Position numbers and translations under genes: made by a program. A model generated the notes under the pieces. That model did no database searches and was not told where the DNA came from. It saw only the letters and a list, made by a program, of their open reading frames with translations. This document shows, piece after piece, positions 1 to 22,643 of a stretch of 64,000 bases of DNA. The stretch's first letter is position 1. Every line of letters begins with the position of its first letter. Origin of the DNA: Paenibacillus sonchi (GTDB lineage Bacteria; Bacillota; Bacilli; Paenibacillales; Paenibacillaceae). Where the stretch lies: NCBI RefSeq assembly GCF_016772475.1, contig NZ_CP068595.1, forward strand, positions 1 through 64,000. The letters are read 5' to 3'.

Positions 1-19
1 TCATTGGATAAGAGAACTG

Positions 20-175
20 CCGTCCCACCACCAGAGGGCACCGCCCGATGGTGGTGGTGTAAAGGCAGGAATAGCAAAATGTCATTTTGCGAGAAAACAG
101 CGTGGAAGCAGAGCTTCCACCGACATTTTTAGTGATTTTCACCCGGCAAACGAATGTCGCTTAAGAGTACCCCAA
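20..175 (+). other. oriT: Predicted origin of transfer (oriT)
   Basis: This is a gene-free leader just before the relaxosome genes. It contains consecutive inverted repeats: CCACCA/TGGTGG (about 26-58), GCAAAATG/CATTTTGC (77-93) and GTGGAAGC/GCTTCCAC (102-120). A fourth pair, CGACATT (121-127) with AATGTCG (153-159), ends just before TAAGAGTACCCC (162-173). That last string resembles the TAAGTGCGCCCT-type nick region of MOBP/MOBQ plasmids. An inverted repeat directly 5' of a nick motif, beside mobC-like and relaxase genes, is the usual oriT layout. The structure is seen; the nick position is inferred. Confidence 0.6.
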
Positions 176-190
176 AGGGAAGGAGATGCC

Positions 191-673
191 ATGGCACAAG
201 CTGAGAAAACCATACAGATCACCGTCAAGCTCCCAAAGAAACAATATGAAGCATTGAAAAAGCATGCAGCTACCAAGCATCTCAGTATGGCAGATATCGT
301 ACGTGCCTTTATTCAAAAGGGGATGTCTGTAGATGCCTATACCGAAGAGATTGATTTCATCACTACTATTATCCGCCAGGAGATCACCATTGCCATCAAC
401 AGTTTGAGTAACCGGTTAGCCGGACTGGCTAGCAAAGACCTCATCATGTCCGCCGCCTCTTATTACTCCACCATTGCTATCATTGCGGATTTAATCGATG
501 TGAATCGTTATACAACTTTCCGGGAGATTGAGAAGAAGGCTCGGCAGCTTGCAGTGGAATACATGAAGATGAAGCTCACTGATGTGGAGAAGCTATTCCT
601 CTCCGGTGATGGTTTTGAGCAGGATGCTGAGCGACTGCGCGGAGGCGATACCGATGTCGGCTCTGATCTATAA
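191..673 (+). CDS. MobC-like relaxosome accessory protein (RHH type)
   Basis: A 160-residue protein likely to bind oriT and help the relaxase nick it. The N-terminus (about residues 8-48) has a beta strand with alternating K/T and hydrophobic residues (TIQITVKLPKKQYEAL), followed by two short helices. This is the ribbon-helix-helix pattern of plasmid accessory factors such as MobC or TraJ-like proteins. The rest is helical and charged. AAGGGAAGGAGA precedes the ATG with good spacing. The next gene, a relaxase, begins inside its last codons, so translation is probably coupled. The family assignment rests on fold pattern and position, not on a recognised signature. Confidence 0.65.
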   Translation: MAQAEKTIQITVKLPKKQYEALKKHAATKHLSMADIVRAFIQKGMSVDAYTEEIDFITTIIRQEITIAINSLSNRLAGLASKDLIMSAASYYSTIAIIADLIDVNRYTTFREIEKKARQLAVEYMKMKLTDVEKLFLSGDGFEQDAERLRGGDTDVGSDL

Positions 674-1889
674 GCAACGCTTCTTCCATCCCAATAAGTC
701 CAAAACTGCAGTCAGCAATTACTGTCATATTGGTTATATCGCCACCCGCCCCGGTGCAGTTCGGCATGATGCGAAAAACCATGGTCTATTCGGAAAACTA
801 AAGCCCGGCGAGATGCAAATATTTGATTCCTGGCAAGAAGTGGCGCGAACTGTCCGAGATATTTCGCAGCAAGGCAAAAACATGTATCGTTGCATTATTT
901 CTTTCCGCAGAGAAACTGCAATGGAACTAGGACTATCAAACTTCACGGCATGGCAGCAGTATATCGAACAACACATTACCACACTTGCAGCACAAAACCA
1001 GATTAAAACAGAGAACCTTTGTTGGGCTGCCGCCTTTCATAACGAAATAGATCACCCCCATCTTCATGTAGTGTTCTGGGATAAGAAACAAGAAATCATG
1101 AGGAACTACACTTCCCCCAAAATCCCCAACCGCATTCGCAAACAGCTGATTAAAGACACATTCGCTTATAAAATTAAACAGTTTATTGCCATGCGGGATC
1201 AGGCCAAATCTGGAGTATCCGAAATTACCGATCAATTGGTAGCAGAATTTGAGAACTATCTGAAACAGTTGAATCCAAAAGCATTTCGAGCATTCCAGCA
1301 GCGGTTCGAAATTGACGATGAAGACTCTCTTCTCCTCTTTCCTAAACATCATTTGGTGGAGCCCTCTTCTGTCAAGAAGTTGGCTGAACAGCTTTTTCAA
1401 TTGCGTCAACAAATGCCGAAATCCGGACGACTTGCGTACAAGCTGTTGCCTCCTGAATCGAAAGCACTGCTGGATAAGTTTGTACAGAACTTGTTGCAAG
1501 AGAATCGCTATCTGGCTCAGATGGTAGATGATTACGTTGAGGCCAAAATGAACCTGGCAATGCTTTATGACTCTAATCCAGATCATTTGAACAGGCAGCG
1601 TGCTAAGTATCAGGCTGAAGCAGAGAAACGTATCGCCAACCGCATCCTCTCCACGGTTCGCACCATCATCCAGCTAGAGGAGGATGCCAACTTTAACATC
1701 AAACAAGCTAATTGGCAGTATGCCATGACAGAGCAATTAGTGCTTGAGCTGCTTAACATGATGGAAGGCTTGGCGATGAATGCCCAAATGGATTACGACG
1801 ACAAAAGCAAGCTAATGGGCGGTGACTTATCGAAGCAGGCTAAGAAAGAATGGCTTTTTCGAAATAAGGATAAAGGATTCGATAGGTAA
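654..1889 (+). CDS. MOBP-type relaxase (MobP2/MobP3-like)
   Basis: The transesterase that nicks oriT, stays covalently bound to the 5' end and pilots the strand to the coupling protein. The chosen ATG gives 411 residues and has GGAGG eight bases upstream; a longer in-frame start at 582 lacks a ribosome site. Residues 129-138 contain the metal-binding signature H-N-E-I-D-H-P-H-L-H, typical of the HxDxxxHxH relaxase motif III. Candidate catalytic tyrosines lie at 23 and 28, in a stretch rich in H, Y and R. The C-terminal half is helical and probably contacts the secretion machine. It overlaps the preceding accessory gene by 20 bases, which supports a relaxosome operon. Confidence 0.88.
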   Translation: MSALIYKQRFFHPNKSKTAVSNYCHIGYIATRPGAVRHDAKNHGLFGKLKPGEMQIFDSWQEVARTVRDISQQGKNMYRCIISFRRETAMELGLSNFTAWQQYIEQHITTLAAQNQIKTENLCWAAAFHNEIDHPHLHVVFWDKKQEIMRNYTSPKIPNRIRKQLIKDTFAYKIKQFIAMRDQAKSGVSEITDQLVAEFENYLKQLNPKAFRAFQQRFEIDDEDSLLLFPKHHLVEPSSVKKLAEQLFQLRQQMPKSGRLAYKLLPPESKALLDKFVQNLLQENRYLAQMVDDYVEAKMNLAMLYDSNPDHLNRQRAKYQAEAEKRIANRILSTVRTIIQLEEDANFNIKQANWQYAMTEQLVLELLNMMEGLAMNAQMDYDDKSKLMGGDLSKQAKKEWLFRNKDKGFDR

Positions 1890-1924
1890 TGTGAGTCTCC
1901 AACCACATCGAAAGGAATGATCAA

Positions 1925-2092
1925 ATGTTTTTTACCAATGGAAAGCTGCAATCTTTTGAGAAACTGATGCGTCAAACTCCACGGAAACATCGACCATCTT
2001 CAGAAGACAAACCGAATCAACAATCTCAAGTAATTCCTTCTCAGGAGAGTCCATCTCAGCTCAAGGAACAATCGGCCAATGGAGATCAATAA
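1925..2092 (+). CDS. Small hydrophilic protein, unknown
   Basis: A 55-codon reading frame beginning MFFTNGKLQSFEK and ending in a Q/S/P-rich tail. GAAAGGAATGA lies just upstream of the ATG at good spacing. Its stop overlaps the start of the next gene by 14 bases, the usual sign of a translationally coupled small gene. No membrane segment or known motif is seen. It has a short basic stretch (MRQTPRKHR) that could bind DNA or the relaxase, but this is speculative. It is too short for confident homology. Confidence 0.5.
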   Translation: MFFTNGKLQSFEKLMRQTPRKHRPSSEDKPNQQSQVIPSQESPSQLKEQSANGDQ

Positions 2093-2729
2093 TCGAATGA
2101 ACGAGGTGCTAGAAGCAGAACTCTCCCGTTTGGGTTTGAATATCCAGCGCGAATCGTCCTCCGTTCTCTCCGTTCTTCATAAGAATGACCCTATCGCGTT
2201 TATCCATGATAATGGTGAAATTCATTATCCAGCTAATACCGAAGCTGCACTCGCTCACCAGATTTCGAGCATTCTCGGAAAGGTCTGGGAGATAGAGACT
2301 ACCTACCGTAATGCTACCCAGCTTGGAATCTCCAGTTTGAGCAGTTACCGCAGTATGCTGGAATATAACCATCATGTATTAGCCGGCCGCTACGATGGGG
2401 ACGGTGAGTTTCGCTTTGTTACGTGGGAGATGAATAACGAGCGGACTGGATTTGCCATGGGGCATTATTTTTATCGCAATGAATATGGGAAGGCAACAGA
2501 CGATTTTCTAATGCGAAGTGGATTACTCGACAAAGGTAGATTGTTCGATAGCGATCAGCTCAGTTCGCTTTACACCGCCCTTCTCTATCGCAGCATCAAT
2601 GATCCCACACTAGGATATAACGAAAAGCAATCCATCGACCTCCTTCTACAGAAAATCGAGTCATTGACTCCCCATTCTCCAAATCTCCTTCATTCGCCAC
2701 TTCAAGCTGAACTGGATCTCGAACAGTAG
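2079..2729 (+). CDS. Conserved element protein, paralogue of the next gene
   Basis: A 216-residue soluble protein of unknown function. There is no signal peptide or membrane helix. The C-terminal half has an aromatic motif (HYFYRNEYGKATDDFLMRSG) that aligns with QYFYDRNEAMENFAVRSG in the following protein. The downstream LFD...L, ND and LLLQKIE segments also align, so the two genes are tandem paralogues. It lies between the relaxase and the coupling-protein genes, so a role in relaxosome processing, entry exclusion or establishment is possible but unproven. A second in-frame ATG at 2097 could also be the start. Confidence 0.7.
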   Translation: MEINNRMNEVLEAELSRLGLNIQRESSSVLSVLHKNDPIAFIHDNGEIHYPANTEAALAHQISSILGKVWEIETTYRNATQLGISSLSSYRSMLEYNHHVLAGRYDGDGEFRFVTWEMNNERTGFAMGHYFYRNEYGKATDDFLMRSGLLDKGRLFDSDQLSSLYTALLYRSINDPTLGYNEKQSIDLLLQKIESLTPHSPNLLHSPLQAELDLEQ

Positions 2730-2734
2730 CCTTT

Positions 2735-3460
2735 TTGATAGGAGTGATTCGAACGAAAAGTAAAAGTGAATTTTATAAAAGCTTCTTTGCTGCCCTATCC
2801 CAACAAGGGATTGAGGTTCGGCGTTCCACATCTGCGGACTATTTAGCAGATTTGTATCAGAAGAATCAGATCATTGCCTTTTATACGAGGATGGACAGTA
2901 TTGAACGCAATCCTTTTGTTACTGTCCCGGATCGGCTTATGAGCAGTATTTCAGACCTAGCAAGGAAAACAGCCTTGCAGCTGGGTGTTTGTACTGAAAA
3001 GCCATACACCGATAAGGAAGAGAAGATCACAAACGGTGTCTACAAGCTTAGTGAATACGGGGATGTCATTCTGGCTTGCAAACATCATCCTCTATTCGAA
3101 TATGTATTTTCGACCTACCGTCTCGCTCCAGAGAATGGAATACCGGTACAACGCCAATATTTCTATGACAGAAATGAGGCGATGGAGAACTTTGCCGTCC
3201 GCAGCGGCCTGGTAGATGGTAAGAAACTATTCAACCAAAATGAGCTTATTCTCATTCATGATGAGATGGTCAAATTCCTCATCAGTCCCAACGACAAGAC
3301 GATGGACCAATTCGAACAGGTCCAGATCCTGATCGACCGATTGGAGGAACTACTGCCCGAGCTTAAAGATCGAGAAATCCACCTGAACTACGAACAAGAA
3401 TTTAGCCATGACTTTGACGGTAACTCGGAGACGCTTGAAATTACCGAAGAAGGTCGGTAA
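2735..3460 (+). CDS. Conserved element protein, paralogue of the previous gene
   Basis: A protein of up to 241 residues, unknown function, homologous over its C-terminal half to its upstream neighbour. The shared elements are Y-F-Y-x-R-N-E, FAVRSGLVD and LFNQNEL, followed by a helix ending LIDRLEELLP. It has no membrane segment and is predicted cytoplasmic. The start is uncertain: the open frame begins with TTG at 2735. A GGAG lies at 2741-2744, too close to the GTG at 2744, so a slightly later non-ATG start is possible. It is followed after 33 bases by another unknown gene with a clear ribosome site. Confidence 0.68.
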   Translation: MIGVIRTKSKSEFYKSFFAALSQQGIEVRRSTSADYLADLYQKNQIIAFYTRMDSIERNPFVTVPDRLMSSISDLARKTALQLGVCTEKPYTDKEEKITNGVYKLSEYGDVILACKHHPLFEYVFSTYRLAPENGIPVQRQYFYDRNEAMENFAVRSGLVDGKKLFNQNELILIHDEMVKFLISPNDKTMDQFEQVQILIDRLEELLPELKDREIHLNYEQEFSHDFDGNSETLEITEEGR

Positions 3461-3493
3461 CAACTCATCTTTATTATAGAAGGAAGTGAGTCC

Positions 3494-4333
3494 ATGCCTC
3501 AGCCCGAAAGCTCGATATGGGGTAATATTTTAACCTGCGCGGAAATTGGCTTGCATGTGTACGGCATGATGGCCGAACACAATAGCGGCATTGTTGTGGA
3601 TGCTGATTATGCCAAAGAAGTACTCAGTGAAGAAGCGTTGCAAGCTGGAGAGTCACAAGGTGATCATATCTATTTCGACGATGCCAAAAGTATCATCCCT
3701 GCCTATGAACTGCTCAAGAAGGATGCAATTACGGATCCGGAATTTAAAGAATGGTGCGGATCGCCAGAAAAACTGGCCCAGGATGGAGAGTTTTTTGCTC
3801 CGGAGTATTTTGGTGGAATGACCCCACCAGCAACTACACCTTGGGGAGACATTACGGAAAGCCAAGAGTTCTACAATGGTATTTCCATGGTGAATCATGA
3901 CGGAGAGTGGGCACTCGCGGTACATCAAACGATCGCAAATCATTGTCTATCGGAGATGGCACAGGAAGTAGCAGCTGGTCAAGAAAACTATCTCTTTTTT
4001 CCACTCGATGCTTGCTCCATTCCGGTTTATGAATTATCTGCTTCTCACCCCGCTATACTGGAACAAATTATCAACGAGGATAGTTTGGTGCACACACTAT
4101 GTGAGGATCATCCCGTCTATGTAACGATGCATAATCTTCATGTTGAAGAATGGGGCCGTATTTATGATCAGCCGGCACCAAGATCACTCTTTCTACAAAT
4201 ACAGCTGGATCAGGAAGCGCGTTTCCCTGTTACGGAACAATACGAAAAATCCCCACAATTCCATCAAGATTCTACCTCCCTGAGAGAACGACCTGATAAT
4301 TTTTTTGAACCCACAGAGGAGCCGGAGTGGTGA
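3494..4333 (+). CDS. Conserved element protein with internal duplication
   Basis: A 279-residue acidic soluble protein of unknown function. It appears to hold two copies of one module, about residues 9-95 and 115-207. Each starts with a W-G-[ND]-I motif and continues through a helical part. Each then has a D/E-rich strand before I-P-[AV]-Y-E-L (SIIPAYELLKKD and SIPVYELSASHP). The tail is disordered and rich in E and P. AGAAGGAAGTGAG precedes the ATG. It overlaps the next gene by seven bases. Position suggests a role linked to substrate docking at the coupling protein; this is only inference. Confidence 0.68.
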   Translation: MPQPESSIWGNILTCAEIGLHVYGMMAEHNSGIVVDADYAKEVLSEEALQAGESQGDHIYFDDAKSIIPAYELLKKDAITDPEFKEWCGSPEKLAQDGEFFAPEYFGGMTPPATTPWGDITESQEFYNGISMVNHDGEWALAVHQTIANHCLSEMAQEVAAGQENYLFFPLDACSIPVYELSASHPAILEQIINEDSLVHTLCEDHPVYVTMHNLHVEEWGRIYDQPAPRSLFLQIQLDQEARFPVTEQYEKSPQFHQDSTSLRERPDNFFEPTEEPEW

Positions 4334-4845
4334 AAACGAAACAAAAGCTGCTGCTTTGCACGCTTTTAATAACCAACGGTTCCATCTTTAATCTCTTCTT
4401 CTCTACGGCCCTGCATGGTGCCTTATCCGGTTCAACTTCAACCCTCACTGTCCCCTCCCTAAATGCAAGCCTGGGTAGTCTTATTTCTAGCAGAGTTCAC
4501 TTTCTGCTTTTTCTTTGTCTTCAAGGATTTACTCTACTGCTATCCACTCTCTTTTTCGTCTCCAATAACCGGCCATATCAAAGTAAACTTAAGCAAATTG
4601 CACCCGGGATTGAAACACCAGTAAAGGTGGGACAAAATCAGCATGGTTCCGCACGATGGCTCCTAGAAGAGGAATGGGCTCATGCCTTCGACTGCGAATT
4701 GCTCGATTTGCAGCATCCCTATATTCGCCAATTGATTCAATCCGGTTACGACGACCTGCATTTCCGACGAACCGATCAGAAGGAGGACTTTCACCGTGAG
4801 GATGCTTCATCCGAAGTCTATTCCGAAAGTGAACGCCGTGATTAA
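4327..4845 (+). CDS. Membrane part of split VirD4/TraG coupling protein
   Basis: A 172-residue protein with two hydrophobic helices (about residues 8-26 and 56-78) on either side of an extracellular loop. A cytoplasmic part follows, containing V-G-x-N-Q-H-G-S-A-R-W. In one-piece VirD4/TraG proteins this HGSARW motif lies just after the membrane helices and before the P-loop domain. The ATPase part is encoded by the following overlapping gene in another frame. Each part has its own translation start, so this looks like a genuine two-subunit coupling protein. A one-base insertion in a fused ancestor cannot be excluded. GTG is the likely start codon, with GAGGAGCCGGA upstream. Confidence 0.65.
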   Translation: MVKTKQKLLLCTLLITNGSIFNLFFSTALHGALSGSTSTLTVPSLNASLGSLISSRVHFLLFLCLQGFTLLLSTLFFVSNNRPYQSKLKQIAPGIETPVKVGQNQHGSARWLLEEEWAHAFDCELLDLQHPYIRQLIQSGYDDLHFRRTDQKEDFHREDASSEVYSESERRD

Positions 4846-6400
4846 CCATCCTCACCGAGCTGCAGCACCACCTCTGATCCAATCGGGTGGTATTGTCCTA
4901 GGATTACAACAAGCACGAAACCAGGAGCGTCTTTTCTTTATAGGGGACGATGTTCATTCTCTCTGTATCGGCGCGACGCGCAGTGGGAAATCTCGAACAG
5001 TGGTCCTTCAATCCATCGGACTCTTGGCTTTAGCCGGAGAATCATTGGTTATCTCTGATCCGAAAGCAGAGCTGTTTCATTATAGTAGCGTACTGCTGGA
5101 GAAGCTGGGTTATGAAGTATTTGCTCTCGATTTCCGCCATCCTGAAAAGAGTCACCATTACAATCTGCTTCAGCCTATCATTGACGCGACGCTGGCTGGA
5201 GACCAAGAGCAAGCAGAAATGCTCGCTTGGGATATGACGAACGTGCTGGTAGGCAAAGCTCAGGGTGAAAAAATCTGGACCAACGGAGAAATGTCGGTCA
5301 TCGCCGCCTCGATCCTAAGTGTCGTGTGGGATAACGTCAAGCGCCCGGAGTTTCAAAATATGACCAATGTCTACTGGTTTCTAGCGGAGATGAACAAACA
5401 AATCGGCAACAAAACACCGATGCAGGAGTACATTAAGCGGTTGCCTCAGAACCATCCTGCTCGGGCTCTGCTCAGCATCTCCGACATTGCTCCCTCCCGC
5501 ACCAAAGGTAGTTTCTATACCTCAGCGTTGACCACATTGCGCCTCTTCACCTCCAAATCCATTTATGCCATCACACACAAAAGCGACTTTTCTTTAGCCG
5601 ACATCGGCAATAAGAAACAGGTGCTTTTTATTATCCTCCCCGATGAGAAGACAACCTTTTATCCTGTGGCTTCGCTTATGGTATCCCAGTTGTACGAACT
5701 GTTAACTACCGAAGCAGACAAACGTGGAGGACGCTTAAAACAACGGGTCAATTTTATCCTTGATGAGTTTGGTAACTTTACGCCTATTGCCGATTTCACA
5801 AATAAGTTGACGGTCGGCGGAGGGCGTGGAATGCGCTTTAACCTATTTCTACAGAGTTTCGAACAATTGAAAGAAAAATACGACGACCATGTAGCCAATA
5901 CGATCAAATCCAATTGTCAGACTTGGATATATCTACAGGCTGACGATTTAGAGACGCTGCGGGAAGTCAGTGAGAAGCTTGGGACATATACAACGTCCAG
6001 TTACCAGCTATCTGCATCACATGGCAAATATTCGACGCCCAGCACTTCACACAGCTTGAATCTGCTTGAGCGCAAGTTGTTAACGGTAGACGAGGTGCAC
6101 CGTGTCTCACGCCCTTATCAGATTGTACTTTCTCGTTCCCATCCAGCAATGATGTATTCTCCCGATCTATCCTCCTGGGCGTTTAACGCAATGATGGGCC
6201 TTGGGGACAAGGAGCATAATCGCCAAGTAAGAGAAGAACGAGAAATGCGGCGAATCGTACGAACGAATACCGCTGAGGAGGTGAAACTTTGGAATATTTG
6301 GATCTACTATCAGAAAGACATTACCCGGCAGATGGCCGAACAACGGCAACAAGCAACCGCTCAAAGCGGATTCTTCCCTCCAGGTTCAGACGACGATTAA
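4796..6400 (+). CDS. virD4: VirD4/TraG-type coupling ATPase (T4CP)
   Basis: The hexameric motor that recruits the relaxase-DNA complex to the secretion channel. The sequence has GGIVLG (31-36), a Walker A G-A-T-R-S-G-K-S (about 59-66) and a DPKAEL motif. The Walker B region is FILDEFGNF near 320, and the C-terminal part has the usual GxRxQxxxQS-like pattern (GGGRGMRFNLFLQSFEQL). At 534 residues it lacks membrane helices, which are in the preceding gene. The GTG start at 4796 has AGGAGG nine bases upstream, which supports an independent translation start. The C-terminus is overlapped by the start of the VirB2-like gene. Confidence 0.9.
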   Translation: MRMLHPKSIPKVNAVINHPHRAAAPPLIQSGGIVLGLQQARNQERLFFIGDDVHSLCIGATRSGKSRTVVLQSIGLLALAGESLVISDPKAELFHYSSVLLEKLGYEVFALDFRHPEKSHHYNLLQPIIDATLAGDQEQAEMLAWDMTNVLVGKAQGEKIWTNGEMSVIAASILSVVWDNVKRPEFQNMTNVYWFLAEMNKQIGNKTPMQEYIKRLPQNHPARALLSISDIAPSRTKGSFYTSALTTLRLFTSKSIYAITHKSDFSLADIGNKKQVLFIILPDEKTTFYPVASLMVSQLYELLTTEADKRGGRLKQRVNFILDEFGNFTPIADFTNKLTVGGGRGMRFNLFLQSFEQLKEKYDDHVANTIKSNCQTWIYLQADDLETLREVSEKLGTYTTSSYQLSASHGKYSTPSTSHSLNLLERKLLTVDEVHRVSRPYQIVLSRSHPAMMYSPDLSSWAFNAMMGLGDKEHNRQVREEREMRRIVRTNTAEEVKLWNIWIYYQKDITRQMAEQRQQATAQSGFFPPGSDDD

Positions 6401-6744
6401 GGTCAGGCCGCTTCTCTTCGGTTATACGAACTGCAGCAGCCGTACTATTTACGCTTTACTACAATTGGGTTGAATCCACATCCGTTTATGCTTCCGGCGA
6501 CATTAAAGGTAGTAAGCTGGTGACCGGGACTGAGAAATTAATCGGTGATGTTACAACTTGGCTGATGATTCTGGCTCCGGTTGTTTCCGGTTTGCTCATT
6601 GTTTATTTTAGTATCCGGCGCTCTGCCGCTGATGAGATGGACACCAAAAAGTGGAACAACCGTATCATTGTTGCCGTTGTATCCTGCATTGGTGCAGTAC
6701 TCGGCGCAGCCACTCTTAATATCATTATTGGCTACTACAAGTAA
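6289..6744 (+). CDS. VirB2/TrbC-like pilin candidate
   Basis: Probably the major conjugative pilin or a small channel subunit. The C-terminal 80 residues have two strong membrane helices (about 90-108 and 128-147) separated by a short polar K/N/R loop. This is the VirB2/TrbC layout. A basic segment plus a hydrophobic stretch ending in VYASG at about 70 could be a long signal peptide. The TTG start at 6289 has GAGGAGGTG upstream and overlaps the coupling ATPase by 112 bases; no other good in-frame start exists. A terminator-like hairpin follows the stop. The assignment rests on topology and position. Confidence 0.6.
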   Translation: MEYLDLLSERHYPADGRTTATSNRSKRILPSRFRRRLRSGRFSSVIRTAAAVLFTLYYNWVESTSVYASGDIKGSKLVTGTEKLIGDVTTWLMILAPVVSGLLIVYFSIRRSAADEMDTKKWNNRIIVAVVSCIGAVLGAATLNIIIGYYK

Positions 6745-6749
6745 ATGGG

Positions 6750-6775
6750 GCTTGCTAACCACAGCAGGCTTTTTT
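6750..6775 (+). terminator. Intrinsic terminator or attenuator
   Basis: GCTTGCT and AGCAGGC form a seven-pair stem with one G-T pair and a six-base loop, followed directly by TTTTTT. It lies between the VirB2-like and the next small membrane gene inside the transfer operon. Partial read-through could set unequal dosage of the genes on each side. Confidence 0.6.
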
Positions 6776-6809
6776 CTATGCTCACATTGAATTCTGGAGG
6801 TTATGAACA

Positions 6810-7040
6810 ATGAAAAAAATGATGAAGGCTATAGCGAAGAAATTTGCTCACATGGGGAGCAATGCAAAGAGAGTACTTAGCAACCGAAGCGGGGAAGGTT
6901 TCGTGGATACGGCTGTAAAGATCCTGATGGCTGTTGTGATCGGAGCACTCGTGTTAGGCGGTCTGTATCTGCTGTTTGAAGGAACCATCCTGCCCACACT
7001 TACTCAGCGGATCAAGGAAATGTTCAACTACAAAGGTTAA
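6810..7040 (+). CDS. Small pilin-like membrane protein (DUF6133-like)
   Basis: A 76-residue protein with a basic N-terminus, then R-S-G-E-G-F-V-D-T-A and one hydrophobic helix (about 37-60). The Gly-Glu-Gly before a membrane helix resembles the cleavage site of type IV / Flp prepilins. A near-identical pattern (K-R-G-E-G-Y-V-D-V-V) recurs in the TadE-like protein at 14753-15145. The element also encodes an A24 prepilin peptidase. I recall similar small proteins in clostridial conjugative elements filed as DUF6133, but could not verify this. It could therefore be the processed pilin of the machine. GGAGG precedes the ATG. Confidence 0.6.
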   Translation: MKKMMKAIAKKFAHMGSNAKRVLSNRSGEGFVDTAVKILMAVVIGALVLGGLYLLFEGTILPTLTQRIKEMFNYKG

Positions 7041-7931: not shown

Positions 7932-7935
7932 CTGA

Positions 7936-8931: not shown

Positions 8932-8958
8932 ACCCTTCCTCAGGAGGTCTTGTCTTTT

Positions 8959-12846: not shown

Positions 12847-12861
12847 GAAGGGAGAATGCAA

Positions 12862-14718: not shown

Positions 14719-14752
14719 TGCATACCATCCAGAAGGAAAGGGGGAATGCTTG

Positions 14753-15145: not shown

Positions 15146-15690
15146 AGTGGCTGACTAACAAATCCGGTAATGGCTTTCCGTTAGTTGTTGCCATTGTGTT
15201 GGCAATACTGATGTTTTCCTGTGTAATTTTTGAATATATGCGACTAACAATTATCGCCAGTAGTGTACGAGATGCCGTGCAAAGCTCCATTATTGCCGTG
15301 GTTGCTGAAAACTACAGTAATGTATACAGCAGCCTGCGGCAAAGTTACTCCGGCGGTTATTTACGGTCCGGAAACGAATGGCAGGAGCAGGTCTCCATAG
15401 GGCATATCTATCCTCGGCTACAACAGAATTTGGGACTGATCGAACAAGGGACACGATATGCCAAGCTAATTGGAGATCAAGCAGAATATAGTGTATCTGG
15501 ATTAACCGTAACACTTATCAATGCACCGTTCGCCCCTTCCTCACCGAACACCATAGAGCAATTAACCGCTGAAGCAGTAATTCAGCTAGAGGTACCACTT
15601 TCCTTTGGCTGGGGGCATCTACCTTCTATGAAGGCAGAATTACATGTTAAAGCAGTATATATGCCTCGGTTCAACTCACAAACTCATTAA
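15142..15690 (+). CDS. TadF/TadG-like pseudopilin
   Basis: A 182-residue protein with the same plan: a short basic N-terminus (MKWLTNKSGNGFP), one long hydrophobic helix (about 14-36) and an exported domain that ends in a beta-rich segment. KSGNGF just before the helix is a plausible prepilin cleavage site. The ATG at 15142 follows GAGGTG at eight bases and overlaps the TadE stop. Together with TadE it probably forms a minor pilin pair that starts pilus assembly. Sequence homology is weak; the call depends on topology and gene order. Confidence 0.65.
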   Translation: MKWLTNKSGNGFPLVVAIVLAILMFSCVIFEYMRLTIIASSVRDAVQSSIIAVVAENYSNVYSSLRQSYSGGYLRSGNEWQEQVSIGHIYPRLQQNLGLIEQGTRYAKLIGDQAEYSVSGLTVTLINAPFAPSSPNTIEQLTAEAVIQLEVPLSFGWGHLPSMKAELHVKAVYMPRFNSQTH

Positions 15691-15714
15691 ATATTTATGA
15701 GTTTGCTGATTTCA

Positions 15715-15743: not shown

Positions 15744-15797
15744 AGAAGAACGGGAGCCTCTTGTAGAACACTAATATGCTATAAGGAGTCGAGAACA

Positions 15798-16373
15798 ATG
15801 AAGCGAAAGATATGGGCTTTTGCCGGAGGAATTGTGATTGTTGGCCTTATTGTCACTTTGGCAGCATGGCCAAATCAAGACAGTAGTCAGATTCCTGATT
15901 CAACAAATACTATAACCGCAGCAGATCCTTCTAAGATCAATGTTCCTGAAAAAGAGCCAAGCCCTACTAACTTCTCCCAGAATCCACGCCCAAGTTCATC
16001 CCCCATCTCTGTTACCGAAATCACCCCTCAGCCTACTATATCTGAAACTCCCATACTTCAACCGGAAAAGGAAAAGAAGAATGTTGAAGTACCTATTACC
16101 CAACCTGCAAAAACACCAAAACCTACCCAGCCTCCTAAGCCCAAAGTTAAGGCATCTACAAAACCACAATCTCCTGCTTCTACTCCAGCTTATGAGGAAA
16201 AGACAACTCAGCCTAATAGACAAAAAGATGAACCAAAGGCTGGAGCTAAAAATAATGATGGGAAGGTTTACGTTCCTGGCTTCGGATGGGTTGAGGACCA
16301 AGGGGGAGGAACTCAAGTTGTTGAAACTGGAAATGATGGTGATTTGAATAAGCAAGTTGGAGACATGGATTAA
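15798..16373 (+). CDS. Membrane-anchored Pro/Thr-rich protein (DUF6550-like)
   Basis: A 191-residue protein with an N-terminal membrane anchor (about 5-24) and a long Pro/Thr/Ser/Lys-rich region (30-145) suited to crossing the cell wall. It ends in a conserved tail containing VYVPGFGWVEDQGGG. I recall this tail in clostridial element proteins named DUF6550, though I could not check it. It may be a wall-spanning component of the transfer apparatus. It has its own predicted promoter, and an intrinsic terminator follows 17 bases after its stop. ATAAGGAGTCGAG precedes the ATG. Confidence 0.65.
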   Translation: MKRKIWAFAGGIVIVGLIVTLAAWPNQDSSQIPDSTNTITAADPSKINVPEKEPSPTNFSQNPRPSSSPISVTEITPQPTISETPILQPEKEKKNVEVPITQPAKTPKPTQPPKPKVKASTKPQSPASTPAYEEKTTQPNRQKDEPKAGAKNNDGKVYVPGFGWVEDQGGGTQVVETGNDGDLNKQVGDMD

Positions 16374-16389
16374 AATCACAAAACATGAG

Positions 16390-16421
16390 AAAAGACGCGG
16401 CGTGTTGCTGCGTCTTTTTCT
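16390..16421 (+). terminator. Intrinsic terminator
   Basis: AAAAGACGC and GCGTCTTTTT form a nine-pair stem around an eleven-base loop, followed by TTTTTCTTTTT. It lies between the Pro-rich gene and the large exported protein; the ribosome site (GGAGG) of the latter starts directly after the T tract. Confidence 0.75.
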
Positions 16422-16438
16422 TTTTGGAGGCATTGGTT

Positions 16439-18181
16439 ATGAGTAGATTCTTAAAATGTATGTTTATCCTATTACTTACGATGACCATTTTCATGCCGTA
16501 TAGTATAAACGCTGATGGTACTGGTGATGGGAATATCGACATTGGTGGTGGGGGTTTAGGTAGCGGTAGTGGGGATAACTTTTGGAATACAAACGATGAA
16601 GGAGTCAGGGTGACTGTAATAAGAGCAGCTGATCAAATTGCTGTATCTGCCTCTATTGATTTTACAAATCGCACTCCTCCAAACTCACTTATTCATTTCG
16701 GAAAAGTCAGTAAACTACAATACAGCAAAGAGACAACCTTAAAACCATCAACTGCCCCTTACACATATGTACAGCCTGGAGAACGTCTACCTTTCATTAT
16801 TAAGTCGAGTAAAGCTGAACCGAGTTTAGAGCTTATCAAAAGATATTTTTGTTCCGAGTACATGGCAATGCGCATTGCGAACGCAACAAATATTGATTAC
16901 GAGACCTTAATAAATGGTAACTACAAACTCCTTATAGAACCCATCGCTTATATCACCTTTCAAGGTGTGCAGATGGCGATGACTGCACATGAAGCCGCTT
17001 TGTATGATCAAATTCTAAATGGTGGCTTACGTTCGAAAATGGTTAGCCTCACTCATCAAAACCTACCATTATCCATATTTCTAGAGACCTCCGATCTTGG
17101 CTTCCCCGCTTGGAATGGTTCTACCACCAGTCGTGTCAGTAACGATCAAATTATTACTTCCCTTGGTTTGGGCATCGTCCGCTTTAATAACGCCCCTACT
17201 ATCCCTTCCCCCAGTCAGACCAGCTACCAATACCGGACAGATACCGATGTGATTACCTCCGTACATCTTTCCACCTCTGCTGAAATCACACCCGATAATT
17301 CTGCACGAGTTACATTTTCGATTATGGGCAGCACTTACACAGTGACGAATATCGTCATTCCGGAAGGCGACAGTCAGTTGGTTTGGATAAAATGGCATAC
17401 ACCTAGCACACCACAATCAATCTCTATTCAGGTGCGCTCAACAAACGGCTCTCTTAATGTTTCTTCTATAACAGCTTCTATTGTCGATCTAAACCAGAAT
17501 CCCCCGCCCAATCCTACTGCCACAGATCGTAACGATTCATTTCATCTCCCTCCAGTTCCTAACTATCCATCAAAAACTACTTCTTCCTGGGGAATCTGGT
17601 CGGCTAGTTGGCATGCATACTGGGTCTGGATTTCTAACTGGCAATGGCACAGTACCGGAAAGGATACCGGTTATTGGATAGACTATGGATATTGGAATGA
17701 TCGAGGTTGGTGGGATTATATCTGGACTAGTTATTTCGCTTCCCTCTCTGCCACTCAATCAGTCATCCCCGATACTAAATCACCATCTCTTTCCTCCAGT
17801 AGGATGAAATCAGGCTATGGCATTGAGATAACCAGCAACAGCACTACCTCTTCTAATGCTCCTAGTAGTCACATCACCGGTGCCCAGCACGCCGTCACCT
17901 ATTTCCCAGAGTTTTCTTATCAAACCTACTGGCGGCTTCATGACCTTAAATCAGGTGGAGTGAACGCCAGTTTTTGGTTAAAGAGAAATGAATACTCTTC
18001 CTACCAGAGTCGAGTTCATTTTACGCCAGTTTGGTTCCCTGATGGACCCTATATTCCAATTACACGCATTCTGGATGCCTGGACACCTGAAGGCATGTTG
18101 ACTCTTCAACTGCAAGAAACGATTACGATCTCCGGGAACCTATTCTCTGATTGGCATATTGCACCGAAAAAAACAAAATAG
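16439..18181 (+). CDS. Large exported element protein, Gly- and Trp-rich
   Basis: A 580-residue secreted protein, perhaps a surface adhesin or pilus-associated factor. It has a signal peptide (about 1-24, ending in INADG). It is followed by a Gly/Asp/Ser-rich linker and the motif NDEGVRVTVI, which I associate with large surface proteins of Firmicute conjugative elements. Residues about 383-433 form a segment extremely rich in Trp and Tyr (WGIWSASWHAYWVWISNW continues similarly). The C-terminus is beta-rich. GGAGG lies eight bases before the ATG. A frameshifted copy of its C-terminal 85 residues exists at 36738-36999. Function is inferred only from export and position. Confidence 0.72.
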   Translation: MSRFLKCMFILLLTMTIFMPYSINADGTGDGNIDIGGGGLGSGSGDNFWNTNDEGVRVTVIRAADQIAVSASIDFTNRTPPNSLIHFGKVSKLQYSKETTLKPSTAPYTYVQPGERLPFIIKSSKAEPSLELIKRYFCSEYMAMRIANATNIDYETLINGNYKLLIEPIAYITFQGVQMAMTAHEAALYDQILNGGLRSKMVSLTHQNLPLSIFLETSDLGFPAWNGSTTSRVSNDQIITSLGLGIVRFNNAPTIPSPSQTSYQYRTDTDVITSVHLSTSAEITPDNSARVTFSIMGSTYTVTNIVIPEGDSQLVWIKWHTPSTPQSISIQVRSTNGSLNVSSITASIVDLNQNPPPNPTATDRNDSFHLPPVPNYPSKTTSSWGIWSASWHAYWVWISNWQWHSTGKDTGYWIDYGYWNDRGWWDYIWTSYFASLSATQSVIPDTKSPSLSSSRMKSGYGIEITSNSTTSSNAPSSHITGAQHAVTYFPEFSYQTYWRLHDLKSGGVNASFWLKRNEYSSYQSRVHFTPVWFPDGPYIPITRILDAWTPEGMLTLQLQETITISGNLFSDWHIAPKKTK

Positions 18182-18199
18182 AAAGTTGGTGCTGCTTTT

Positions 18200-18880
18200 A
18201 TGTTGCTGCCCATTATTGTGCTGCTCCTCTGCCTTCTTGGCGGAGGAGCTGTTTTATTTCGCCTCATGAAAAGTAAATCAAAATCCAACATCACCACTGA
18301 TCTTGCCATGCAAACAGCACAAGAATTCGTCCAAGTACAAGACATTCATGGAAACTTCCTTCATACTCAAGACGGTTGGCTGATGAGCTATTTACGGATC
18401 TTCCCGATTAGCCTGGATTTATTGAGCACCTCTGAAAAGCGGATGCTTATTAGCAAGCTGACAGCCGAATTATCCTCTTTCAACTATCCATTTAAGTTTC
18501 TTGCAGTAAGCCGCCCTGTAGATATTTCCCCTCTAATTTCAGAACTCAGTGCCTTACTCTCTACCGCAGACCCTAAGCAGAAAGAACTGCTTCGACAAGA
18601 AATGCTGGAGATGAACACGCTCACTCTCTCAGGTGAAGTAGTTGAGCGACAATTTTATTTAATCCTCTGGCAGCGTCAAAATGACGGGACTGAACGGGAT
18701 CTCTTGGACAAAGTTAAACGGCTTGCCCAGCATTTTGAAGAGGGCCAAGTACAGACCCAACTTTTAAAACAGCAAGACATCGTTCAGTTATGCAACCTAG
18801 TTAACAATCCCTCCTACACCCACCTCGAAACGACAGAACCTGAAAATGTGATTCCTTTTCTTGCGAAGTTGGAGGTGTAG
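18200..18880 (+). CDS. Stand-alone VirB4 N-terminal-domain-like protein
   Basis: A 226-residue protein with an N-terminal membrane helix (1-20). A soluble domain follows, with FLHTQDGWLMSYLRIFPISL and FKFLAVSRPVDISPL, resembling the N-terminal domain of VirB4/TrsE ATPases. There is no P-loop. The VirB4-like ATPase two genes downstream begins with a similar but separate region. This protein may therefore be an accessory subunit that tethers VirB4 to the membrane. A decayed homologue occurs at 37018-37593. It starts 18 bases after the exported protein gene, and the next gene begins three bases after its stop. Confidence 0.65.
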   Translation: MLLPIIVLLLCLLGGGAVLFRLMKSKSKSNITTDLAMQTAQEFVQVQDIHGNFLHTQDGWLMSYLRIFPISLDLLSTSEKRMLISKLTAELSSFNYPFKFLAVSRPVDISPLISELSALLSTADPKQKELLRQEMLEMNTLTLSGEVVERQFYLILWQRQNDGTERDLLDKVKRLAQHFEEGQVQTQLLKQQDIVQLCNLVNNPSYTHLETTEPENVIPFLAKLEV

Positions 18881-18883
18881 AAT

Positions 18884-19717
18884 TTGGATCCCTTCACCGC
18901 GAAGTTACTTTCCAAAATAGCCCTGAAAATCGCTTCCGACGAACAAGCTCGCAAACGAATGTTGATGCTGATTTTAGTTCCGGCAGCCACCTTGTTAGTT
19001 CTCATCGCTATGGTTCTACAACTGCTTACCTCCCCCTTAGAGTCACTCAAAATATGGCTCTCGGCAGATGAAACTCCCATTGTAAATGAAATGCGTATCG
19101 ACTATGGCTTCACCCAAATTCTACAAAATAACGACGAAGGATATGTGGAAAGTCAGGGACAGCAATATGAGGGAGTAACGTTTAAGGATGGAAGTCGTGA
19201 GGTTGTCTACTACAACCAAATGGACTCCCGTTGGGCAGATAAACCTTATGGTCCTAGGGATACCATTGGAGTATCCGGTTGCGGTCCAACTTCCTTATCA
19301 ATTGTCGTTTCGACCCTCACGAGTAAAAGGATCGATCCAGTCTCTATGGCTAAGTGGGCCTATGACAATGGTTATTTGGCAGAAGGAACCGGTAGCTACC
19401 ATAGCTTGATTCCTGATGGTGCACAGCATTTTGGTTTGAATGTGCAAGGGGCTGCTCAAAAAGACAAGCAAACCATCATTAATGCCTTATCCAGTGGAAA
19501 ACTCGTTGTTGCCATTATGGGTAAAGGTCACTTCACTTCCTCTGGTCATTTCATGGTACTTCGAGGCGTCACCACAGAAGGCAAAATTCTTGTCGCTGAT
19601 CCAGCCAGTCGAAAGCGAAGCGAGCAGGCATGGGATTTCTCCATTATTTTGAATGAAGCCCGAGAGAATGCAGCAGCAGGTGGCCCCTTCTGGATCATAA
19701 GCGGAAAGGAGAACTGA
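18884..19717 (+). CDS. C39-like peptidase, likely VirB1-type wall enzyme
   Basis: A 277-residue membrane-anchored protein (helix about 25-47) with an extracellular cysteine-peptidase domain of the Peptidase_C39_2 type. It begins at YYNQMDSRWADKPYG, has S-G-C-G-P-T-S near residue 131 (catalytic Cys) and G-H-F-M-V-L near 223 (His). The usual Asp appears in VADPAS. Conjugation systems need a local wall hydrolase or processing enzyme, and this takes the VirB1-like place. Whether it cuts peptides or modifies the wall is unknown. The TTG start follows GGAGGTG at six bases. Confidence 0.78.
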   Translation: MDPFTAKLLSKIALKIASDEQARKRMLMLILVPAATLLVLIAMVLQLLTSPLESLKIWLSADETPIVNEMRIDYGFTQILQNNDEGYVESQGQQYEGVTFKDGSREVVYYNQMDSRWADKPYGPRDTIGVSGCGPTSLSIVVSTLTSKRIDPVSMAKWAYDNGYLAEGTGSYHSLIPDGAQHFGLNVQGAAQKDKQTIINALSSGKLVVAIMGKGHFTSSGHFMVLRGVTTEGKILVADPASRKRSEQAWDFSIILNEARENAAAGGPFWIISGKEN

Positions 19718-19721
19718 TATT

Positions 19722-21536
19722 TTGAAACCCACATCTCCATCTTTATCTGTGAATCCTTCGCTTCTAAACGCAATCACTCCTATGGGCCTGGAGTTTTCTC
19801 GTAACGGCCTTGTGATTGGTGAACAAACAGCTAAAATGTATGGCGTCATTCAGTATCCTCCCAAAGCAGATGTCGGTTGGCTCTCCACTCTAACCAATAT
19901 GCCATCTACCATGGTATCTATCGGTTTTCAACCTATAGACAATAGCGCCTTAATCTCTGCAATATCCAAATCCATTACACAAAATCGCAGCATGGCTGAC
20001 AGTGCTAAAGATCCTCTAACCCGTCAACGAGCAGACAAGGCGGCTACGGACGGTGAGAATATTATGATGCAGATTGACCAAAACGGTGAAACGGTAGGTC
20101 TCATGAATGTAATGGTCATGCCATTTGCGGAAGATGATAAGCAGTTCACTCGCGCATGTAGACGTGTTGAAAACACCTTAAGTATGATGCGCTGCAAAAT
20201 TCGCAACCTGGCCCATCTTCAAAAAGAGGGCTTTCGTCACCTATCCCCCATGTACCCTGCACAAGATCAAATTGGGGATATCTTAAATAAAATCATGCCA
20301 ATGAGTACCTTCATTGGAGGCTTCCCTTTTGCAAGCTCTGGCTTCAACGACGGAACGGGTTATTATTTCGCTAAGGACGCTAGCGGCGGATTGGTCATCG
20401 TCGATACATGGAAACGTGGCGGCGACCGGACCAATTCAAACATCGTCATAATGGGCGTAGCCGGCGTAGGTAAATCTACAGCTGTAAAACATGTGGCACT
20501 TAGTGAATACATGAAGGGTACCAAAATTATTTTTATTGATCCAGAGTCGGAATATAAGGAGCTTTGCCAGAGGCTAAATGGCGACTGGATTAACGCCGGT
20601 GGTGGATCTAATGGTAGAATCAATCCTCTTCAAATTCGTCCAGCTCCACGCGATGAAGAGGATGAGGATTTTCCGCTTTATAAAGATGAAGGTAATGGTA
20701 TGTCCGATATGGCTCTGCATCTTAAGAATCTAGAAATCTTCTTTAACCTCTATATTCCTGATCTTACAATGATGCAAAAAGCTGTTCTCAAGCAGTGCTT
20801 GATTGAGTTATATAATCAGTTTCTAATTACGTGGACCACAGATATTACGAAACTAGCCAGCACCGACTTCCCTACTTTTTCTGACCTCTACGCTCTGATT
20901 GATGGCAAGGAAAAGAAGCTTGGAGATGATGTGTATAAAGAATTGTCCCTACTGTTGCATGATATTGCACATGGTGGGGACTCTTTTTTATGGAATGGTC
21001 ACAGCACGATCCAAACCCATAGCCGCTGCATTTGTTTGGACACCCATACTCTTCAAAATACTTCTGAGAATATCAAGCGAACTCAATACTTTAACCTCTT
21101 ATCCTGGTGCTGGGAGCAAATGTCTCAGGACCGAACAGAGCGGGTTCTGCTGATTTGTGATGAGTGTTATTTAATGATCGACCCTAACGTCCCGCAGAGC
21201 CTAGTATTTTTACGAAATGTTGAGAAACGCGCTCGAAAATATGAAGCCGGATTGGTAATCATTTCTCATAGTGTTGTCGACTTTCTAGCACCTGAAGTCA
21301 AGATGTACGGGCAAGCGCTTTTGGATATTCCTTGTATCAAAATACTGATGGGTACAGACGGAAAAAACCTACAAGAAACACGAGAGCTTTACAACCTAAC
21401 GGACGCGGAAGAAGAACTTCTGGCCAGCAAAAAGCGCGAGCATGCTTTGTTGATGATTGGCTCCAAGAGGCTGCATGTCCACTTTGATATCCCTGAATAT
21501 AAGTTTGCTTATATGGGAACAGCAGGAGGACGATGA
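19722..21536 (+). CDS. virB4: VirB4-like conjugation ATPase
   Basis: The main energising ATPase of the secretion channel. The 604-residue protein has an N-terminal VirB4-type domain (about 40-220). It is followed by a Walker A G-V-A-G-V-G-K-S-T near 245, the FIDPESEY strand after it and a Walker B LLICDECY near 475. The motif FLRNVEKRARKYEAGLVII and a final QALLDIPCIKILMGTD are also typical of the TraE/VirB4 family. The TTG start follows AAAGGAGA. It is co-transcribed with the C39 gene upstream and with a 29-residue membrane protein downstream. Confidence 0.9.
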   Translation: MKPTSPSLSVNPSLLNAITPMGLEFSRNGLVIGEQTAKMYGVIQYPPKADVGWLSTLTNMPSTMVSIGFQPIDNSALISAISKSITQNRSMADSAKDPLTRQRADKAATDGENIMMQIDQNGETVGLMNVMVMPFAEDDKQFTRACRRVENTLSMMRCKIRNLAHLQKEGFRHLSPMYPAQDQIGDILNKIMPMSTFIGGFPFASSGFNDGTGYYFAKDASGGLVIVDTWKRGGDRTNSNIVIMGVAGVGKSTAVKHVALSEYMKGTKIIFIDPESEYKELCQRLNGDWINAGGGSNGRINPLQIRPAPRDEEDEDFPLYKDEGNGMSDMALHLKNLEIFFNLYIPDLTMMQKAVLKQCLIELYNQFLITWTTDITKLASTDFPTFSDLYALIDGKEKKLGDDVYKELSLLLHDIAHGGDSFLWNGHSTIQTHSRCICLDTHTLQNTSENIKRTQYFNLLSWCWEQMSQDRTERVLLICDECYLMIDPNVPQSLVFLRNVEKRARKYEAGLVIISHSVVDFLAPEVKMYGQALLDIPCIKILMGTDGKNLQETRELYNLTDAEEELLASKKREHALLMIGSKRLHVHFDIPEYKFAYMGTAGGR

Positions 21537-21538
21537 GC

Positions 21539-21628
21539 ATGGACAAAAAGAAACAGCTCATTGAGCTTTTTTTCTATATGGGTCTAGTGGTGATCGGGAT
21601 CATTTTGTTATTCATGAAGGAAGGGTAA
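21539..21628 (+). CDS. 29-residue single-helix membrane protein
   Basis: A very small frame: MDKKKQLIELF followed by a hydrophobic helix ending in FMKEG. AGCAGGAGGACGATGAGC gives a good ribosome site nine bases before the ATG, and the gene starts three bases after the VirB4 stop. It ends four bases before the next start. The tight packing and charge pattern (KKK outside, E/K at the end) suggest a real small membrane subunit. Confidence 0.5.
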   Translation: MDKKKQLIELFFYMGLVVIGIILLFMKEG

Positions 21629-21632
21629 AATT

Positions 21633-22643
21633 ATGATTCTATATCTGACGAGTAGTGGCAAGAATAACTTGCTTGATTTTATCGAGGATGAATTGGAACT
21701 ACCGATAAAAAAGTTAATTGGGTCATTTTCTCTCAATTTCTTCGTGGTCAAAGATATGCGTTACTACAACCATGTTCGCTATGTAGTAATTGACCGAACA
21801 TCTATTCAAGAATCCGATGAAGAAACTATACAAGCCCTTTCATCCTATCGGATGATGTATGAAATGCGAATCATTTTAATTGATGAAGGACTGCCGACAA
21901 GCAGTCCTTTTCTGCAACAATTAATCCAATTGAATATACAAAACGTGGTTACAGCGGAGGGCTTTGAAGAAATACAGGATGAAATCCGAGAGTGTTTTTC
22001 TGAAGAGGGCATGCAGCGACATAACAACGTCCAACTTCAAAACTCTCCACTTGAACAAGGAGGCCTGTTTTCAACATTAGAACAAGAAGTGAAATACCGC
22101 TTTAACTGTACGAATCTCACAATAGCAATTGCTGGATGTGATCGACGTGTAGGTGTCACCACCACGGCATTTAACCTGGTATGCTGGATTAATTCTCATG
22201 GAGGAAAGGCATGTTATGTAGAGTCAAACAGTAACAACCACCTTGCTCACATAATTCAATTGTTTAAGCCGGAAAAGTCAGGAAATGCCTATACCATGGA
22301 GGGTTCTGATTTTTATTTTACAAAAGAGTTAAATCGAGACTATAACTTTATCATAGTTGACTGCGGCGTACTAAAAGATAAAGCGATCCAAACAGATTTC
22401 GTTGATTCAGACATCCGCTTAATCTGTAGTTCAGCCATGCCCTATGAATTGGCAGGATTCTACCGGGCTATGGAGCGGTGTAAAGCACTCTCTGTACAAG
22501 CCCTAGGATTATTTGTGCCTGATAATATTAAGACGTATTTGTCACAAACTATTAGTCAGGACATCATCTACTGCAATAATACTCATGATTTATTTGATTC
22601 TAAAGCCAACGAGACTGCATTTAGAAAGGTTCTTAATTTATGA
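21633..22643 (+). CDS. Second CpaE/TadZ-like ATPase with atypical P-loop
   Basis: A 336-residue protein with two parts. Residues 1-130 resemble a receiver-like domain: alternating strands such as VRYVVIDRTSI, MRIILIDEGLP and IQNVVTAEG. Residues 155-336 are a MinD/ParA-like ATPase. The P-loop reads C-D-R-R-V-G-V-T-T-T-A-F-N-L, lacking the usual Lys before Thr, so ATP turnover may be weak or absent. FIIVDCG is the Walker B-like strand. This is the second TadZ-like protein in the element. It is the last recognisable gene before the insertion-sequence cluster. Confidence 0.72.
   Translation: MILYLTSSGKNNLLDFIEDELELPIKKLIGSFSLNFFVVKDMRYYNHVRYVVIDRTSIQESDEETIQALSSYRMMYEMRIILIDEGLPTSSPFLQQLIQLNIQNVVTAEGFEEIQDEIRECFSEEGMQRHNNVQLQNSPLEQGGLFSTLEQEVKYRFNCTNLTIAIAGCDRRVGVTTTAFNLVCWINSHGGKACYVESNSNNHLAHIIQLFKPEKSGNAYTMEGSDFYFTKELNRDYNFIIVDCGVLKDKAIQTDFVDSDIRLICSSAMPYELAGFYRAMERCKALSVQALGLFVPDNIKTYLSQTISQDIIYCNNTHDLFDSKANETAFRKVLNL

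Follow-up and report, generated by a model that had tools for sequence, protein, structure and literature searches.

Genes for a Tad (type IVc) pilus and for a type IV secretion system (T4SS) were found to form a single co-directional run on the + strand in Paenibacillus sonchi, at positions 191-22,643 of the stretch analyzed here (the window; the first 64,000 bases of contig C1, NZ_CP068595.1, which measures 7.48 Mb in a genome of 7.78 Mb). Neighboring genes in this run overlap or leave short gaps, and the Tad block (A24 peptidase, CpaB, TadZ, CpaF, TadB, TadC, DUF4320, TadE-like) is nested between the VirB3-like and VirB4 genes. The region is best explained as the part of an integrated conjugative element that encodes transfer, namely a T4SS with an embedded, co-inherited Tad block, whose gene content, gene order and recurrence in the Bacillota were directly observed. 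To judge from the genes, donor and recipient probably make contact in mating by means of a Tad pilus or pseudopilus.

The first-pass annotation, made from the letters of the window, had described relaxase, T4SS and Tad genes tightly packed on one strand, and all of these were recovered. Pfam and NCBIfam matches were obtained for the MobP3 relaxase, VirD4, TrbL_4, A24 peptidase, CpaB, CpaF, DUF4320, DUF6550, RadC, C39-like peptidase and VirB4, and the core of a Gram-positive conjugative T4SS (relaxase, VirD4, VirB4 and VirB6/TrbL) was thereby matched in full. Most of the earlier gene labels were upheld by these families, except that the gene called VirB1-like (18884-19717) matches the C39-like peptidase family and not a lytic transglycosylase. 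The VirB2-, VirB3- and TadZ-like assignments have weak scores and rest on conservation and position; the VirB2-like T4SS pilin had profile matches in 34 of 42 loci.

Pairing of Tad and secretion genes across the Bacillota

A profile of 12 CpaF proteins was compared with contigs of one genome per species (84,980 species), which returned 388 relatives. The best 80 of these, among which the nearest were from Paenibacillus, were taken with flanks of at most 10 kb per side and joined by one viral contig to give 81 loci. A T4SS core gene lay on the same strand as CpaF in 64 of the 81 loci and on the opposite strand in none. Where at least 9 kb was available on both sides, 49 of 52 loci carried a T4SS core gene; the exceptions (L183, L194 and L197) belong to the arrangement that has its channel genes downstream, and two of them were seen by eye to have a small secreted VirB2-like open reading frame (ORF) and then unrelated genes. 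L194 comes from E. bolteae and belongs to the element type. The A24 peptidase, CpaB, TadZ, TadB, TadC, TadE-like, DUF6133/DUF4320-type and secreted proteins were each present in all 52 of these full-flank loci, and DUF6550 in 44. The search for the same gene order in other Firmicute elements, as proposed in the first-pass annotation, showed it to be conserved across many genera: the nested order VirB3-(A24-CpaB-TadZ-CpaF-TadB-TadC-DUF4320-TadE-DUF6550-secreted protein)-VirB4 was encountered in Paenibacillus, Clostridium, Desulfosporosinus, Oscillospiraceae and others.

Among 398 Bacillota genomes, 47 encode the channel protein TrbL_4 (PF19597), compared to 0 of 14 control genomes; a TrbL_4 channel is also that of Tn1549-like elements. 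From 60 rows we took 40 loci, excluding weak and fragmentary rows, second hits and the own genome. Tad genes were found at 27 of the 40, including loci with an upstream same-strand block (G250, G343, G261, G390, G121, G112, G098, G111, G047, G038 and G037), with a downstream one (G384, G253 and G371), and G386. The evidence was thin at G305 (CpaF only), G253 (CpaB and TadZ only, at a contig end) and G047 (CpaF and CpaB only). Upstream blocks reach approximately 37 kb from TrbL and are likely to belong to the same element as TrbL, although element ends were not mapped. Ten of the 13 Tad-negative loci had less than 20 kb of upstream contig (G229, G212, G351, G289, two in G191, G381, G108, G391 and G033).

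A sample of 119 Bacillota genomes that was not selected by the element, the own genome included, contained 103 CpaB rows (PF16976) and 39 VirD4 rows (PF02534), the latter merged into 35 loci. Of the 103 CpaB genes, 17 had a VirD4 gene no more than 40 kb away, in every case on the same strand, compared to 1.7 expected by random placement (Poisson P 4e-12, which ignores clustering: the 17 fall in 11 genomes, of which G086 accounts for 4 and the own genome for 2). Because of this excess, the pairing is not attributed to chance. Counted from the other side, 16 of 35 VirD4 loci had CpaB within 40 kb, and with the own genome left out the counts were 15 of 100 CpaB and 14 of 33 VirD4 loci. The CpaB genes near VirD4 all scored under 70 bits (17 of 46 below that value and 0 of 57 at or above it). 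This threshold was set post hoc; the pattern suggests that Tad loci of chromosomes differ in kind from those linked to transfer genes.

The T4SS and the Tad block are very likely one co-inherited unit. In the 29 of 81 loci in which all seven compared proteins were found, pairwise distances of CpaF correlated with those of VirB4 (r 0.91), TrbL (0.81) and VirD4 (0.76), while the comparison pairs gave 0.93 for CpaF-TadB, 0.85 for TrbL-VirB4 and 0.91 for TrbL-VirD4; these correlations partly reflect host descent. The earlier proposal of one machine thus holds as regards inheritance of the gene sets as a unit, which is indicated by gene order, the 49 of 52 loci, the absence of opposite-strand pairs, and a CpaF-VirB4 correlation close to that of CpaF-TadB.

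Gene content and condition of the element copies

The features of the run are collected in Table 1. The VirB4 gene additionally reached 360 bits against NF045975, under that model's cut-off of 590, and the gene at 3494-4333 carries DUF7007 (PF22653, 28.1 bits). No integrase or att sites were noticed by eye in the flanking ORFs, for which no dedicated search was run; the contig begins at window base 1.

Table 1. Features of the transfer module in the window, in order of position.
Feature	Position	Strand	Evidence or remark
Ribbon-helix-helix accessory protein, putatively of relaxosome type	191-673	+	PF01402 21.8 bits, cut-off 20.5
MobP3-family relaxase	582-1889	+	NF041499 242 bits, cut-off 150; PF18555 MobL 45.5 bits
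Three function-unassigned genes (2079-2729, 2735-3460, 3494-4333)	2079-4333	+	Conserved in Paenibacillus relatives
VirD4 coupling ATPase	4796-6400	+	PF02534 189.7 bits; ORF 4327-4845 precedes
VirB2-like T4SS pilin, internal start likely	6289-6744	+	PF18895 E 8e-4, below cut-off
DUF6133, Flp-like prepilin	6810-7040	+	PF19629 98.4 bits
TrbL_4 (VirB6-like) channel protein	7095-7931	+	PF19597 384.6 bits
Small membrane protein	7936-8145	+	VirB2-like pilin profile PF18895 E 0.041, below cut-off; conserved next to TrbL
VirB3/PrgI-like protein	8156-8494	+	PF12666 E 0.061, below cut-off; position conserved
A24 prepilin peptidase, TadV size	8467-8931	+	PF01478 50.7 bits
CpaB/RcpC	8950-9708	+	PF16976 59.3 bits; TIGR03177 79.1, cut-off 71
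TadZ-like ATPase gene, frameshifted (ORFs 9581-10042, 10000-10566)	9701-10566	+	
CpaF/TadA motor ATPase	10563-11912	+	PF00437 (T2SSE) 93.7 bits
TadB platform protein gene, frameshifted	11909-12846	+	
RadC-like gene within the Tad block	13037-13828	+	PF04002 133.4 bits; small ORF 12856-13098 precedes
TadC platform protein gene, frameshifted	13844-14718	+	Comparison with L120
DUF4320, TadE-like pseudopilin with prepilin-like start	14669-15145	+	PF14208 127.9 bits
Second TadE-like protein	15136-15690	+	No Pfam match; in 52/52 full-flank loci
DUF6550 protein	15798-16373	+	PF20187 66 bits
Secreted beta-rich protein, ~585 amino acids, candidate surface/tip protein	16385-18181	+	
Conserved protein adjoining VirB4	18200-18880	+	38/42 loci; no Pfam match
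C39-like peptidase, at the wall-hydrolase place	18884-19717	+	PF13529 73.7 bits
VirB4 ATPase	19722-21536	+	PF19044 (P-loop_TraG) 46.2 bits, cut-off 25.8
MinD/TadZ-like P-loop protein	21633-22643	+	PF13614 E 0.0015, below cut-off

The nearest relative among the best 80 of 388 CpaF relatives is Paenibacillus sp. S150 (L120; CpaF 98% identical), in which TadZ, TadB and TadC are single ORFs of 328, 312 and 291 amino acids. Intact versions of the element are thus present among relatives. Alignment with L120 runs in one frame for the window's relaxase, VirD4, TrbL, VirB3-like and VirB4 genes. A second element copy was located at C1:7,338,440-7,361,051 (L007/L008), with 92% and 89% nucleotide identity over two matched stretches; a TadZ break is common to it and the window copy, and further breaks occur in its TadC, TrbL, DUF6550 and VirB4. 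A DUF3991/Toprim primase-like gene lies upstream of each copy (L009 15,880-16,877 and L007 2,427-3,431). That of the window-side copy is split, and if the contig is circular, other genes intervene between it and window base 1.

Several related loci were observed in the same genome. Window 36,705-37,597 is a broken remnant of a third related element, 59-80% identical to L120, and retains the end of the gene for the secreted protein together with a portion of the conserved gene that follows. In another cluster (L214, C1:4,373,000-4,388,999), CpaF-, DUF4320- and RcpC-like genes, along with weaker TadZ- and T2SSF-like ones, accompany genes for an M23 peptidase and a VirB4/HerA-like ATPase. Closely related Tad modules with large surface proteins occur on the chromosome (L211, C1:3,393,000-) and on a 256-kb contig (L213, C2:50,000-), the latter with a Replic_Relax protein upstream, and a Paenibacillus peoriae plasmid carries a CpaF-DUF4320 module. 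A RadC-like gene inside the Tad block was seen in Paenibacillus and some other elements. A terminator-like stem, detected by pattern match only, lies at window 6,747-6,772 immediately 5' of the DUF6133 gene and may set pilin dosage. DUF6133 genes are tandemly doubled in a Terrisporobacter plasmid (L115 2,356-2,885) and a Clostridium element (L135 5,342-5,849).

A proposed mating pilus and its alternatives

In the mechanism that we propose, the A24 peptidase would mature the DUF6133 and TadE-like proteins, and CpaF with TadB and TadC, placed by TadZ and CpaB, would build a structure across the wall, either a thin pilus or a short pseudopilus, and perhaps retract it. With the conserved secreted protein (16385-18181) perhaps at its tip, the pilus would join donor and recipient or open a path, and MobP3, VirD4, VirB4 and TrbL would process and pass the DNA strand. 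The Tad block looks like a general mating device rather than a quirk of this element, because several different Gram-positive channels have Tad blocks alongside.

The residues of the predicted pilus proteins were examined in relatives. In an alignment of 15 A24 peptidases, taken from 18 (the window and 17 others), two Asp residues were invariant in 15 of 15, and we take these to be the catalytic residues. The DUF6133 protein looks like a Flp-type prepilin, as Gly -1 and Asp +5 were present in 14 of 14 aligned proteins and 16 of 17 overall (the window and 16 others); the second L135 copy and L146 were judged by eye and fit the motif. The Flp prepilin motif consists of Gly -1, an acidic residue at +5 and Tyr +6 (PMC3244431). 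Tyr +6 is absent from DUF6133, which is therefore termed Flp-like only.

The remaining Tad assignments draw on different kinds of evidence. DUF4320 and the TadE-like protein were assigned from gene place and start motif. Neither TadB nor TadC of the window had a Pfam match; the TadB fold in relatives was counted in favor of a pilus, and a TadC homologue in L182 gave a T2SSF match with an E-value of 1.6e-4, below the cut-off. The intact TadZ of L120 had only weak MinD/ParA-type Pfam matches, and the TadZ-like protein reached 26% probability against a Rhizobium protein at the TadZ place.

We considered whether CpaF, TadB and TadC could instead act within the cell, as components of the DNA channel that replace VirB11, with a short pseudopilus as a piston and no surface pilus. 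This appears unlikely, even though pLS20 possesses tadA with TadB-, TadC- and DUF4320-like genes while A24 and CpaB are not annotated in the stretches covered, and CpaF scored 134 bits against the NCBIfam VirB11 model compared to 118 against TadA (both below cut-off). The A24 peptidase, CpaB and a prepilin-type protein (DUF6133 and DUF4320 counted together) are kept in 52 of 52 full-flank loci. In a tree of 51 sequences, of which only well-supported splits were used because of long branches, the element CpaFs formed one clade (100/100; 22 rows) that has the pTPHSE1 and pCd5_2 plasmids inside and adjoins other plasmid Tad ATPases. VirB11 and TrbB formed their own clade (96/91), and CpaF of the element falls outside it; the Tad ATPases of Tn1549-like loci fall in several other places. 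Among structures in the PDB, the CpaF profile matched solved CpaF best (135 bits, compared to 82 bits for solved VirB11).

The Tad block might also be cargo for adhesion or biofilm formation, of use to the host but without a role in transfer, which we judge rather improbable. Tad pili are described as adhesion organelles in literature abstracts, the authors of a study on Cutibacterium acnes plasmids leave the link to conjugation open (PMC5696575), and the Tad position differs between elements. However, the block is nested among channel genes with overlapping starts and stops, Tad and channel genes are co-directional in every pair counted, Tad co-varies with VirB4, and Tad adjoins several unrelated channels. 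Chance or misassembled juxtaposition of two unrelated operons can be dismissed with near certainty, being refuted by the same order across many genera and contigs, the 17 CpaB-VirD4 pairs against 1.7 expected and the 49 of 52 loci, with no point found in its favor.

Several observations weigh against a mating pilus or pseudopilus. Relative to L120, a single-base frameshift within a homopolymer run interrupts each of TadZ, TadB and TadC in the window copy, and because of these breaks this copy can probably no longer build a pilus; decay and assembly error are indistinguishable. Close relatives that lack Tad genes, which the first-pass annotation had said would speak against its proposal if transfer persists in them, were mostly not encountered, but the Tn1549-like loci G187 (with a split TrbL), G326 and G077 lack Tad in the stretch covered. 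Likewise, for 12 of the 19 VirD4 loci without nearby CpaB, a scan reaching as far as 40 kb to one side or both showed no Tad block; several of these 12 are on short contigs. The block lies variously between VirB3 and VirB4, upstream at up to ~37 kb, or downstream; this variation is compatible both with a separable accessory and with a single machine, and from co-inheritance alone a mating pilus and a cargo pilus are indistinguishable. To these points are added the higher VirB11 score of CpaF, the missing cleavage motif in DUF6133 of L194 (1 of 17), and the lack of a profile match between the TadE-like proteins and canonical TadE. The support for a mating pilus comes from gene content, order, co-occurrence, trees and residues.

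Related systems and the possible place of Tad genes in Gram-positive conjugation

The Tad module was also encountered with other channels. The Terrisporobacter plasmid pTPHSE1 (CpaF 58% identical; MobP2 relaxase) and the C. difficile plasmid pCd5_2 (46%) combine A24-CpaB-TadZ-CpaF-TadB-TadC-DUF4320-TadE with a pLS20-type channel, and because of this the module is seen to move between channels as well. In pLS20 itself, an annotated tadA follows the thioester adhesin gene and precedes VirD4, and the TadB-, TadC- and DUF4320-like genes lie in the same interval. The channel type differs from that of the element (pLS20_p028, CD1115-type VirD4). The related plasmid pLDW-15 has the same protein accessions as pLS20 for the tad-like genes. 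Against the TadB/TadC profile, the two proteins after its tadA gave hhalign probabilities of 91% and 92%, and the protein that follows them reached 76% against DUF4320 (Pfam E 0.006, below cut-off), while two other pLDW-15 proteins used as controls gave nothing above 10%. The TadB-like protein was found on 141 plasmids (Bacillus 51, Listeria 45, Enterococcus 31, Lactococcus 5, and others), of which 94 are typed as conjugative. The reduced tad set of pLS20 occupies 9,839-12,971 of NC_015148.1 (L271), and ATPases related to its tadA match on 151 plasmids at an E-value of 1e-30 or better. The Thermoanaerobacterium plasmid pMU3262 (L118) carries two adjacent but different Tad modules, with FtsK- and replication-relaxation-type genes nearby.

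Pilus-aided conjugation is described for IncI plasmids and PAPI-1 (PMC12857230). The IncI plasmids R64 and TP114 resemble the element in joining a T4SS, there Dot/Icm-like, with a type IV pilus that aids donor-recipient contact (PMC12857230; PMC9045228), but they are Gram-negative, and their pilus is a Pil set with PilV minor pilins in a separate cluster rather than a nested Tad block. PAPI-1 likewise has T4SS ATPases (VirB4/VirD4) and a type IV pilus needed for transfer there (PMC12857230), whereas its VirB4 and VirD4 homologues stand alone and the window encodes a fuller, Gram-positive channel set. The Tn1549-like loci share the channel order VirD4-pilin-TrbL-VirB3-VirB4-peptidase, and mostly have a Tad block where at least 20 kb of upstream contig exists; in contrast to the element, that block is upstream or downstream rather than nested, and its CpaF falls in other clades.

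Combinations of Tad and transfer genes in Gram-positive bacteria are already in print. Linear plasmids of C. acnes carry tad next to FtsK, VirB4 and TcpC-like genes, and a putative pilin was detected on the surface (PMC5696575); they differ from the element as Actinobacteria with other channel genes, and the likeness is by description and not by sequence. Sulfobacillus thermotolerans pL15/pY0017 carry CpaF/TadA and TadB/TadC-like genes with a relaxase, a coupling protein and VirB4 (PMC6803676), but these were read as a putative type II secretion system, a prepilin and peptidase are not named in the excerpt, and this likeness too is by description. Gram-positive tad loci without a found pilin are reported for C. 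bolteae and others (PMC3244431). A Bacillota-wide link of Tad and T4SS was found neither described nor tested in full-text searches of the open literature. The pairing is known from plasmids, but it is more widespread than the papers covered recognize.

According to the accounts cited, Gram-positive conjugation systems seem to lack pili (PMC8092201, PMC11730352), and a 2025 review states that they universally lack VirB11 homologues (PMC12857230). The first-pass remark that such systems usually lack a VirB11-type ATPase and a prepilin peptidase agrees with this literature and not with the genomes analyzed here; a VirB11 homologue is named on pAW63 (PMC9673590) and a pLS20 gene is called virB11 (PMC11730352).

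We put forward, as a possibility somewhat short of even, that a Tad pilus or Tad-driven pseudopilus is the main contact device for a large share of Bacillota conjugation systems, with pLS20-type plasmids of Bacillus, Listeria, Enterococcus and Lactococcus using a stripped form. If true, Gram-positive conjugation would often be pilus-aided, against current reviews. A possible functional home is also suggested for the families of unknown function DUF6133, DUF4320 and DUF6550. With a Tad block on many Bacillota transfer systems and a reduced form on the genetically easy pLS20, the question of how Gram-positive donors find and hold their recipients would become approachable by a few gene deletions.

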